From positions 62,001 through 126,000 of the forward strand of contig NZ_CP083667.1 in assembly GCF_020097835.1 (NCBI RefSeq): a stretch of DNA of 64,000 bases, in the 5' to 3' direction. The notes under the pieces are model-generated. The model saw only the letters and a list, made by a program, of their open reading frames with translations, searched no databases and had not been told where the DNA came from. Shown here in pieces: positions 32,803 through 36,223 of this stretch (positions are counted from its first letter, which is position 1; every line of letters begins with the position of its first letter). Origin of the DNA: Haloprofundus halobius. Lineage in GTDB: Archaea > Halobacteriota > Halobacteria > Halobacteriales > Haloferacaceae. The translations under genes were made by a program, and so were the position numbers.

Positions 32803-33726
32803 ATGCTCACAGAAGGCGAGGTTCGCGCCCTTACTGCCCTCCACGGTGAGCAGATGGTCTCTGCACTCGCAACAAGTCTTGATCGGAGTCTCAGCTACAC
32901 CTCTGAACTCGTCGAGCGGCTCGAAACGGCTGGCCTCGTCGAGACACGTCGACAGGGGAAAACAAAGCAGATTCGACTGTCGGACGCGAAGGCACTCGAG
33001 TTACTCACGAACCTCACGCAGCAGTATTCACACATCGACTGGCCGGAGCTGTTGTCAGGGGCAGCCCTCAGGGTTTGCTACTTCCTCGACACTCCTCGGA
33101 CTGCGAGCGAACTCGCACACCGCGCCGACGTCCACCGAAGCACCGTCCACCGTGCGCTTTCCCCGCTTCAACATCGCGGAATCGTCTACCAAACCGACGA
33201 CGGCGCGTACGCACTGAATGACGGCTTCGAACAGCTGAGTACATTCGCTCGTGAGCTCGCTCATCAGGTCCACCGCCAGGCTGTCGAAGAACAGACCGAC
33301 ACGTACACGATTCTGTGGGAGTCTCTCGACGAGTTCCTTGTACAGACGGGGACTGAGGTCAGCGACGAACACTTCATCCCGACAGGGCCAGACCAATTCC
33401 AGCGATATGGTCTTCCACTCTTAGCACGTGACCGCAGACACTACCTCTATTCGGAGACTACGAGTGAGCTCTCGCCGGAGACATTGTGCTGTCACATGCT
33501 CGTGATTGATTCCGGCCCACGAACGCAGTCATACTGCCTGCTCTTGCTCAGTCACGTCGACATCGACCGCGACGAACTCCGAACCCAAGCCACCAAGTAC
33601 GGCGTCGGCGACGTCGTCGACGACCTCTGCACGTATCTCGACACCAGCGGTGCCCAACGGACGTCGCGACTCCCCGAGTGGGAGGACTTCCAGGAACTGG
33701 CTGAGGAGTACGAGGTGATGCTATGA
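32803..33726 (+). CDS. Double winged-helix transcription regulator (MarR/ArsR type)
   Basis: The protein is 307 residues from the ATG at 32803 (MLTEGEVRALTALHGEQMVS); an open extension to 32506 is rejected for composition and because the TATA box sits just before 32803. First winged helix: LATSLDRSLSYTSELVERLE, TAGLVETRRQGKTKQIRL. Second: SELAHRADVHRSTVHRALSP, LQHRGIVYQTDDGAYALNDG. The C-terminal 130 residues form an uncharacterised sensor part with FIPTGPDQFQRYGLPLLARD and CLLLLSHVDIDRDELRTQAT. Two-winged-helix regulators of this length often sit next to toxin-like or nucleotidyltransferase modules in haloarchaea. Confidence 0.82.
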   Translation: MLTEGEVRALTALHGEQMVSALATSLDRSLSYTSELVERLETAGLVETRRQGKTKQIRLSDAKALELLTNLTQQYSHIDWPELLSGAALRVCYFLDTPRTASELAHRADVHRSTVHRALSPLQHRGIVYQTDDGAYALNDGFEQLSTFARELAHQVHRQAVEEQTDTYTILWESLDEFLVQTGTEVSDEHFIPTGPDQFQRYGLPLLARDRRHYLYSETTSELSPETLCCHMLVIDSGPRTQSYCLLLLSHVDIDRDELRTQATKYGVGDVVDDLCTYLDTSGAQRTSRLPEWEDFQELAEEYEVML

Positions 33727-33845
33727 GGTCGCGATTCGATAGCTCATACATTCGTTCAAACACTGGCAATAGAGATATAACTCGGCAAAGAGGTCAAAAG
33801 GAAGCATAAGGCTTCACTCTCCGCAAGAATTTAGCTGTTTTAGCA

Positions 33846-33908
33846 ATGCAAGTACTCGACTTTGAAGACAAAGCATTTAGCATGGACTGGTTTGATCTGT
33901 CGCTTTGA
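33846..33908 (+). CDS. Possible 20-residue peptide at the edge of the AT-rich cassette
   Basis: ATG...TGA encodes MQVLDFEDKAFSMDWFDLSL, an acidic, aromatic peptide. There is no Shine-Dalgarno and no homology cue; it is listed because it lies just upstream of a protease gene and its composition is not random-looking. It could be a spurious frame. Confidence 0.25.
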   Translation: MQVLDFEDKAFSMDWFDLSL

Positions 33909-33935
33909 GGAGAAAATCAAGAAATACAAAGATTT

Positions 33936-33946
33936 AAGTTATAATA
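33936..33946 (+). promoter_or_regulatory. TATA-like promoter of the metzincin cassette
   Basis: The stretch AAGTTATAATAC in AT-rich DNA lies about 25 nt before an ATG at 33964 (a 14-codon frame) and about 70 nt before the protease ATG. Archaeal transcription starts about 25 nt after the TATA box, so the message would begin near 33964. Confidence 0.45.
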
Positions 33947-33963
33947 CTTTTTTGTATGTTTTG

Positions 33964-34008
33964 ATGAGCGTTGAAGACAAAAATAAATCTCGAGTACAGG
34001 TGATTTAG
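33964..34008 (+). CDS. Possible upstream micro-ORF of the protease gene
   Basis: ATG to TAG encodes MSVEDKNKSRVQVI; its stop is 1 nt before the protease ATG at 34010. With the predicted transcription start at about 33964 it would be translated leaderless and could couple into the protease gene. Prediction only. Confidence 0.3.
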   Translation: MSVEDKNKSRVQVI

Positions 34009-34009
34009 C

Positions 34010-34696
34010 ATGACGATTCATGGTACAATGTCCATGAGTCGTAGAGTGAGTGATCAAATCGATGATTGGTGTCTGACTGTCGTAAAGCAGTATCTCAAAG
34101 ATGCTCTGGACAGTGAGAACGTATCGTACAGCATTTCTATATCAAGCGATCATAGTTTCGATCCTTTCCTTGATGTAGCAACGGCAGCAGGGAATGACTA
34201 CCCACACGAAGACTCAGATGGAACGAATCATTCATCTTGCATGATCAAGTTGAAAAGGTACTGGGAGGACTGGGTATCTGGCCACCCAGATGAAGCCTCA
34301 GACTTCAACCTCTGTCTGGTACTTCAAGACGACTACGAAGACAGGTACGGAATCTACGGTCGTGCTGGTGGCAACGCCGGAGTTTGCCGTGGAGCAAAGC
34401 GGATTGACAGCGAGACCGACAGCAACTTCCCTAGATTCGACAGTGGAAACTATCCTGCTCATGTAGCGATCCATGAAATTGGACATATGATTGGGGTAAG
34501 CCACGATGATGGTGCATGCTATCAGCTACCTTCCAGTGGAGACGCTCAGACACCTCATTATAGCGGAGCCAGCCAGAACAACTGCGGCTATAATAACGTC
34601 AACCAGGTAGCTATGGCACCAATTACCATGATTTCCGTTTCTGGGGATCGTGTGCCGGCGAAGCTATCAGAAAATACGATTAAAGGTAGATGTTGA
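34010..34696 (+). CDS. Metzincin-type zinc metalloprotease, no signal peptide
   Basis: The protein is 228 residues. HEIGHMIGVSHDDG at about residues 161-174 is the extended HExxHxxGxxH zinc-binding motif of metzincins: three His ligands and the catalytic Glu. A Met about 45 residues later (QVAMAPITM) may be the Met-turn. Cys residues flank the site (GVCRGAKR, GACYQLPS, NNCGYNN). The N-terminus (MTIHGTMSMSRRVSDQIDDW) has no Tat or Sec signal, so the product would stay inside unless exported otherwise. The gene is AT-rich with Asn/Ser/Lys-rich product, unlike its neighbours. The next gene, a Tat substrate, starts 1 nt after its stop. Proteolytic target unknown. Confidence 0.85.
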   Translation: MTIHGTMSMSRRVSDQIDDWCLTVVKQYLKDALDSENVSYSISISSDHSFDPFLDVATAAGNDYPHEDSDGTNHSSCMIKLKRYWEDWVSGHPDEASDFNLCLVLQDDYEDRYGIYGRAGGNAGVCRGAKRIDSETDSNFPRFDSGNYPAHVAIHEIGHMIGVSHDDGACYQLPSSGDAQTPHYSGASQNNCGYNNVNQVAMAPITMISVSGDRVPAKLSENTIKGRC

Positions 34697-34697
34697 C

Positions 34698-35588
34698 ATG
34701 ACACAATACAATCGCCGATCAATCCTCGCAGCAGGTGGCGCAGCAATTGGAATCAAACTCACTCCAAAAATCGTCGGTGCGAGTGATTCCGAAGAGATAA
34801 TCAATTGGAAACACGATGTCGGAAAACTTCTAGCAGAGAGCTCTGCTTTTGTTGAGAAAGCTTATGGGACGATTAGTGTATCAAACCCAGAGTCGGAGCA
34901 ATTTCTCTTTGTGAATGTAGAATCTGACATGAGTAGCAACACCGATAATATTCCAGATATAGATAGCTTTGTACTAAAAATCGGTGATAAGAAATATAGG
35001 GCTCTGAAGAGCCTTGAAGGAGTCCGATCCAATCAAGTCGCGATTGCGAATGGACTCAAGAAAGCATACGCGAAAGAGCGACAGCTGCGCTGGGAAGATG
35101 GGAGAACAAAGACAATACCGGATGGAAACGGTACTTTAATCTTCAAAATCCCCAACTCAATATCAGAGGACAAGATTAGCCTATCCATCAGACCAAATGG
35201 TTCAGAATCAGAAGTCGCAAGTTGGCAGATCTCGGGAGATTTAGCAAAACAAATTCGTCAAACACCTTCATTTCAAATCTCCGAATTTGAACCACCAACC
35301 AGGATGGATCCGGAACTAGGCGGAACCGGTTCTATTACAGTGACGAACACTGGTGAACGAGACGCTGTTTTCCGTGCCGTTACCGGAAATACAGAAAGCC
35401 AGCACACTCTCCCAGTCTCTATTAACGTTCCTGAGGGACAGAGTGTAACTGAAAAGATATTCTTCGATGCTACTCGGGGTAAACCGCCGGTATCGGTTGG
35501 TATGTCCAGTACTCAGTCGATAGGGTTATCGATAAGCACAGGTAGATCTGAGATCAGAAAATCAGTCCCGCAGACAAGGGCAGATTAG
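34698..35588 (+). CDS. Tat-exported protein of the metzincin cassette
   Basis: The protein is 296 residues from the ATG at 34698, one base after the protease stop, so the pair is co-transcribed. The signal MTQYNRRSILAAGGAAIGIK has the twin arginines and a hydrophobic core but no lipobox Cys, so a soluble or loosely held exported protein is likely. The C-terminal half contains ELGGTGSITVTNTGERDAVF and NVPEGQSVTEKIFFDATRGK, a CARDB/Ig-like beta-sandwich pattern common on haloarchaeal surfaces. The middle has an Arg/Lys-rich helix (NGLKKAYAKERQLRWEDGRT). No family named. The gene has the same AT-rich, Ser/Asn/Lys-rich character as the protease gene. Confidence 0.78.
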   Translation: MTQYNRRSILAAGGAAIGIKLTPKIVGASDSEEIINWKHDVGKLLAESSAFVEKAYGTISVSNPESEQFLFVNVESDMSSNTDNIPDIDSFVLKIGDKKYRALKSLEGVRSNQVAIANGLKKAYAKERQLRWEDGRTKTIPDGNGTLIFKIPNSISEDKISLSIRPNGSESEVASWQISGDLAKQIRQTPSFQISEFEPPTRMDPELGGTGSITVTNTGERDAVFRAVTGNTESQHTLPVSINVPEGQSVTEKIFFDATRGKPPVSVGMSSTQSIGLSISTGRSEIRKSVPQTRAD

Positions 35589-36113
35589 TTACTGAACTGA
35601 GGATCCCAGTTCTCCTTCTTTAGTTATGTAAAAACGCACTCCTTGATTCATTGCTTCCCGATCTGACTGAGGTGACCACTCAATTTCAGAACGTTGGCCA
35701 TCAGAAAGTTCAGCAATAAATTTATACGTACCGGTATCTGTCACAAGTTCTTCTACCAGAATTTCCTCAAACGAATTGATCGTATGTGTTTGATCGTATA
35801 TTTTTGTATTGTCATTCATGTCTGTGGCTTGAATGGATATTTCTATCGTCTCATTGTATCGGTTGTAAACTGCTAAATCACTATTCGGGTCTTTGACAAA
35901 TGTCGTGGTTGTTGACTCAGTTGTCTCTGTGGGGGAGGGCGATCTGGTGACTCGTGTCGTTGTATTCTGCTGGTCAGCAGTCGGGTTGGTTGTCTTAGTT
36001 GTGTTCTCCGCAGTGCCCTCTGCGTTATCTTGCGGATCACTAAGACAACCTGTTGACAAAGCTATTGACCCAGTTGCGACCAGAAAGCGTCTTCTATTCA
36101 CTTCCATGGTCAT
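35589..36113 (-). CDS. Tat lipoprotein convergent to the metzincin pair
   Basis: The protein is 174 residues (MTMEVNRRRFLVATGSIALS, with a start two codons later possible). Twin-arginine signal RRRFLVATG and lipobox STGC predict an exported, lipid-anchored protein. A long Thr/Ser/Asn linker follows (NTTKTTNPTADQQNTTTRVT ...), then a beta-sandwich: DLAVYNRYNETIEISIQATD, YDQTHTINSFEEILVEELVT, TGTYKFIAELSDGQRSEIEW. Its stop codon directly abuts the stop of the preceding gene (35588/35589) with no gap, an unusually tight convergent arrangement. It shares the AT-rich composition, so it likely belongs to the same acquired cassette. Confidence 0.82.
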   Translation of the reverse strand: MTMEVNRRRFLVATGSIALSTGCLSDPQDNAEGTAENTTKTTNPTADQQNTTTRVTRSPSPTETTESTTTTFVKDPNSDLAVYNRYNETIEISIQATDMNDNTKIYDQTHTINSFEEILVEELVTDTGTYKFIAELSDGQRSEIEWSPQSDREAMNQGVRFYITKEGELGSSVQ

Positions 36114-36223
36114 GATTTAAGGGGTGTAATTAAGTATTTTGCGGAAATGAAGAACAACGAAATTTGAATCAGAATTCAGAGCCAGAAAGTTCGATTCCCA
36201 AGCTAGTTACTAGCGTAATATTG

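Follow-up and report, generated by a model that had tools for sequence, protein, structure and literature searches.

A recurrent haloarchaeal gene triad suggests Tat-dependent hitch-hiking of a leaderless metzincin on interchangeable partners

The closest described parallels to the locus reported here come from proteins that leave the cell on the twin-arginine (Tat) signal of another protein. In Streptomyces, the leaderless tyrosinase MelC2 is secreted on the Tat-bearing MelC1, as has been established experimentally (PMC2758597). NiFe hydrogenases and formate dehydrogenase (PMC10924467) and PaoABC (PMC4273604) likewise carry a single Tat-bearing subunit, and hitch-hiking by untagged subunits has been described (PMC10924467). 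Our locus shares with the MelC operon a leaderless enzyme beside a small helper with a Tat signal, but MelC2 is a bacterial copper enzyme whose copper incorporation likewise depends on the helper, and there is no lipoprotein (PMC2758597). The redox complexes differ in being cofactor-containing redox enzymes rather than proteases, whereas the subunit that bears the signal varies between those systems, as it does in two of our loci (L118 and L120, below). The partners in such hitch-hiker redox complexes are conserved in sequence. Among metzincins, serralysin and its inhibitor Inh resemble our locus in pairing the protease with a neighboring exported beta-rich protein, but serralysin is secreted by the type I route, guided by a signal at its C terminus.

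Within the haloarchaea, a peptidase with its own Tat signal, annotated as "peptidase M10A and M12B matrixin and adamalysin" (WP_276256961.1, WP_247004927.1), has the same catalytic domain family and C-terminal cysteine pair as our protease; it differs in carrying its own signal, in lacking a partner, and in often lying beside trehalose genes. The VARTIG modules of Thermococcales are likewise hypervariable archaeal surface modules with Ig domains and varying neighbors, but they belong to another lineage, and the text of the paper mentions neither a metzincin nor Tat (PMC8416519). The synergistic antagonism of halolysin and HapP in haloarchaea also combines an extracellular protease with a second secreted protein; that protease is a serine protease, however, and protease and precursor come from different strains and are not cotranscribed (PMC12893001). 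The initial annotation of our locus recognized no described haloarchaeal system of this shape, and our search of the open-access literature agrees, having found no description of a haloarchaeal metzincin or hitch-hiker system so arranged. Tat hitch-hiking is known chiefly from redox enzymes and tyrosinase; a protease counterpart that recurs with exchangeable carriers would, if true, put it to a new use.

We examined three genes in the window, by which we mean the whole 64,000-nucleotide stretch of Haloprofundus halobius DNA that was analyzed (Table 1). They form a cassette with a GC content of 45.5%, 12 points below the 57.3% of its flanks, which confirms that three AT-rich, abutting genes lie here in a GC-richer setting. 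The left edge of the cassette falls inside a gene for a DUF6036 nucleotidyltransferase, whose first 12 codons remain. Downstream of the same regulator, this gene is intact in another genome (G019) and in several haloarchaeal plasmids; with only 12 codons left in the window, the cassette has thus replaced most of the DUF6036 gene on contig 2 (423 kb). No clear terminal repeats were found at the cassette, where we saw short imperfect matches only.

Table 1. Features of the AT-rich cassette, in window coordinates
Feature	Position	Strand	Basis
DUF6036 nucleotidyltransferase remnant, 12 codons, MRSRFDSSYIRS	33722..33758	+	Gene interrupted by cassette
AT-rich cassette with all three genes	33759..36223	.	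GC content; left edge is the DUF6036 remnant
P0001, leaderless metzincin (reprolysin-like metalloprotease), 228 aa	34010..34696	+	Pfam, family alignment, ADAMTS profile match
Zinc-binding motif HEIGHMIGVSH, residues 155-165	34472..34504	+	Sequence, alignment
P0002, Tat-exported partner, 296 aa, without lipobox	34698..35588	+	1 nt after protease stop
Twin-arginine signal of P0002 (RRSIL...IVGAS)	34698..34784	+	Direct reading
P0003, convergent Tat lipoprotein, 174 aa, Thr-rich linker and Ig-like domain	35589..36113	-	Sequence; hhalign
Tat signal and lipobox of P0003 (RRRFLVATGSIALSTGC)	36045..36113	-	Direct reading

The first gene, P0001, had been described as a protease with a perfect HExxHxxGxxH motif and no export signal, and both points were borne out. 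The motif reads HEIGHMIGVSH (residues 155 to 165), and an in-frame TGA three codons 5' of the ATG makes an N-terminal extension impossible in that frame, confirming the leaderless start; the remaining frames upstream are interrupted by stops. Pfam Reprolysin_3 matches P0001 above its cutoff (24.3 versus 22.4 bits), and a profile of the 20-member family weakly matches the PDB chains of ADAMTS-1 (E, 0.0015) and ADAMTS-5 (E, 0.0066), so that profile comparison places the family domain nearest to the adamalysins/ADAMTS. These features are not due to chance: E156, H159, T181, C192, and C228 are invariant across 20 aligned sequences, the members other than P0001 sharing 16 to 23% identity with it. 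The C-terminal cysteine pair, kept in 20 of 20, is better conserved than the first zinc histidine, and cysteine makes up 2.7% of the protease, about three times the 0.9% of acidic neighboring ORFs. Together, the invariant pair and the high cysteine content fit a disulfide-bonded extracytoplasmic protein. In the Met-turn region, TPM occurs in many relatives; the aligned residues of P0001 are TPH, and further methionines follow later. Single-sequence AlphaFold models reached pLDDT values of 32 and 36, too low to be of use. Neither plasmids, phages, nor viral contigs yielded a match to P0001, and viral scans with two of its relatives likewise gave none. The sole genome-contig match, a Pedobacter protein, was set aside, its similarity being local, around the zinc motif.

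Catalysis by P0001 itself is likely, but it probably does not extend to every member of the family. Four loci have another residue in place of the first zinc histidine (QEVGH in L121, EELGH in L200, EEVGH in L201, and EEVAH in L256), and catalysis is doubtful there; several relatives show either this loss or a relaxed spacing of the zinc motif. Ratios of dN/dS were 0.09 to 0.14 in the tested pairs of leaderless proteases. The L256 pair, despite the lost histidine, has a value of 0.14, indicating purifying selection and thus suggesting a nonproteolytic role or an altered metal site.

One base separates the TGA of P0001 from the ATG of P0002, whose N terminus (MTQYNRRSILAAGGAAIG...IVGASD) reads as a cleavable-type Tat signal with a likely cleavage site and no lipobox. 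The earlier description of this gene as a Tat substrate starting 1 nt downstream therefore stands, while the Ig-like half attributed to it is weakly supported (Pfam E, 0.16). At other loci, proteins related to P0002 are for the most part Tat lipoproteins that adjoin no protease. P0003, which begins MEVNRRRFLVATGSIALSTGC, a Tat lipoprotein signal, is convergent with P0002, and their stop codons do touch, at 35588/35589, as had been noted. The P0003 domain matches the profile of Ig-like partners (A5) from other loci (hhalign E, 2.3e-6), and the lipoprotein domains of L201 and L128 give comparable or weaker matches; partner and lipoprotein roles thus draw on overlapping domain pools. No plasmid relatives of either P0002 or P0003 were found.

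Relatives of P0001 in haloarchaeal genomes fall into two groups. One is a large clade of proteases with their own Tat signal (the own-Tat clade), to which the annotation quoted above belongs; the other is a diverse leaderless set, with reading frames that open right at the initial strand of the catalytic domain. Across six haloarchaeal families, we compared 20 independent loci of the leaderless kind, and in 18 of them the protease adjoins, on its own strand, a gene with a Tat signal, mostly at a spacing of -4 to +12 nt (the window, L044, L119, L121, L124, L126, L127, L129, L130, L199, L200, L201, L203, L204, L205, L212, L213, and L256). The order is reversed, partner first, in L124, L204, L205, and L256, with the coupling retained. 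A credible abutting Tat gene was found in none of about 53 own-Tat relatives, a difference (Fisher P, ∼3e-15) that is indicative only, because the loci counted are not independent of one another and the own-Tat relatives come close to forming a single clade. Both counts were assigned by hand, and each leaderless member was inspected. A lipoprotein gene also lies beside the pair in 17 of the 18 and is absent from the L123-L125 group, a count not strictly comparable with the own-Tat loci, many of which were read with 1.5-kb flanks only. The Tat neighbor of L128 is divergent and of a propeller type, and one conserved leaderless clade within a single family (L206, L207, L216, and L217) has no Tat partner.

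Several of these assignments depend on reading by eye. The automatic scan missed the signal of the window partner, the L205 partner, and the own-Tat signals of L081 and L083, and the partners of L119 and L205 require an inferred non-ATG start codon. Conversely, we judged as spurious reading frames the automatic Tat flags beside the own-Tat L048, L116, and L210 and a second, downstream flag beside L124; an own-Tat flag on L201 was likewise judged spurious.

The idea that the three genes form a system thus survived both of the refuting conditions set for it: the arrangement recurs in about 20 loci, and the homologues do not all carry a signal of their own, the leaderless start being genuine. It needs two qualifications. 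What the loci have in common is the arrangement, with neither the partner nor the lipoprotein keeping its sequence, and catalysis is probably not shared by the whole family. The partners fall into three or more families that look unrelated: most share a small Ig-like domain (A5/A7) with no significant Pfam match, a second type has a repeat (L044, L204, L205, and perhaps L119), and P0002 represents a third. Codivergence of protease and partner was not detected (rho, 0.06; P, 0.31), in a test made weak by identities of about 20%, nor was any detectable between protease and lipoprotein.

In two loci the signal has changed places. In L118 (4191 to 5614) and L120 (4099 to 5522), the protease has a Tat signal and its Ig-like neighbor, overlapping by 4 nt, has none. 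These proteases group with the leaderless ones and not with the own-Tat clade, in a tree whose backbone is weakly supported. There is thus one Tat signal per pair, on the partner in 18 loci and on the protease in these two, which is what export of the pair as a folded complex would predict. This exchange provides indirect support for export of the cargo on the signal of its partner, and its occurrence in two genomes renders the hypothesis directly testable.

The sequences themselves show how the genes are arranged, that this layout recurs, that the protease lacks a signal, that signals have been exchanged in nature, and that two cysteines never vary; binding of protease and partner, export, and the role of the lipoprotein are what we infer. 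The three genes would then probably constitute a module whose leaderless metzincin is exported by hitch-hiking through Tat on its partner. Protease and partner would be translated jointly and would fold and associate while in the cytosol; the Tat translocase would then carry the complex out on the partner signal alone. After cleavage of that signal, the complex would be released or kept at the surface, where the lipoprotein may dock it or shield the producer from it. Of the three options put forward in the initial annotation, such coexport is the best supported. We count against it that at least three partner families would be odd for one fixed interface, that codivergence was not detectable, that a partnerless leaderless clade and the divergent L128 neighbor exist, and that the L118 neighbor matches the Ig-like partner profile weakly (E, 0.04). 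If export by hitch-hiking is correct, genome-based secretome lists overlook leaderless cargo, and the haloarchaea possess a testable interaction module.

The genomic setting bears on what such a module might do. AT-rich cassettes were found in 18 of the 19 loci tested, L118 being the exception, and the protease tree does not track host families, though its backbone is weak and the window lies on a long branch. By these signs the three-gene set is a mobile haloarchaeal module. One genome (G417; L256:4406-9899) carries three tandem lipoprotein/partner/protease units, which have diverged similarly at all three genes (55 to 71% identity); the protease is truncated in copy 2, and the partner is frameshifted in copy 3.

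Interference, surface processing, and a trans-inhibitor pair are all possible functions. Once outside, the metzincin could harm competing haloarchaea, either by itself or together with its partner, while the lipoprotein confers immunity on the producer, a reading of function that is compatible with hitch-hiker export and that we offer tentatively. The patchy distribution across families, the AT-rich mobile cassettes, the strong divergence, the tandem amplification of the whole unit, and the variable lipoproteins drawn from several domain families all point this way. Loss of the first zinc histidine in four loci, with purifying selection in the L256 pair, argues against it, as does the result of PADLOC, whose anti-phage defense models matched none of P0001, P0002, and P0003. 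A broader reading would be of a widespread, undescribed, polymorphic haloarchaeal module in which an active or pseudoprotease metzincin travels on interchangeable Tat carriers against competitors and the lipoprotein serves as immunity factor or receptor; we regard this as no better than possible.

A zymogen-type pair, in which the Tat partner, as a trans-acting inhibitor or chaperone, holds the protease inactive in the cytosol and the lipoprotein is a second inhibitor at the surface, comparable to Inh for serralysins, is also compatible with coexport. The Ig-like partner family has a domain type in common with the window lipoprotein, so that both could bind the protease; the partner families vary among loci, however, and the partner persists where the first zinc histidine has been lost, so we consider it rather unlikely. 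Processing of the partner by a cytosolic protease before export would account for the gene coupling and for a protease without a signal, but we judge it improbable, given that members lacking the first zinc histidine retain the partner, that the protease is cysteine rich with two invariant cysteines, and that exported homologues are the common form.

Chance juxtaposition of Tat genes in fast-evolving surface-gene islands would suit the AT-rich cassettes and the commonness of Tat proteins in haloarchaea, but it is hardly credible against 18 of 20 versus none of about 53, distances of a few nucleotides, and tandem repeats of the unit. Decay of a gene that simply lost its signal peptide is very improbable as well, as truncated or IS-interrupted relatives (L208, L214, and L265) are set against an intact window gene, leaderless starts that recur in many families, and dN/dS values of 0.09 to 0.14. 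In L265 (3850 to 5337), on a plasmid of Haloarcula sp. JP-L23, the triad is present with the 5' end of its protease gene replaced by an ISH3 element. At another locus, L257 (1571 to 2891), an Ig-like Tat partner occurs as an orphan: the protease is missing, although a gene for a lipoprotein lies close by.
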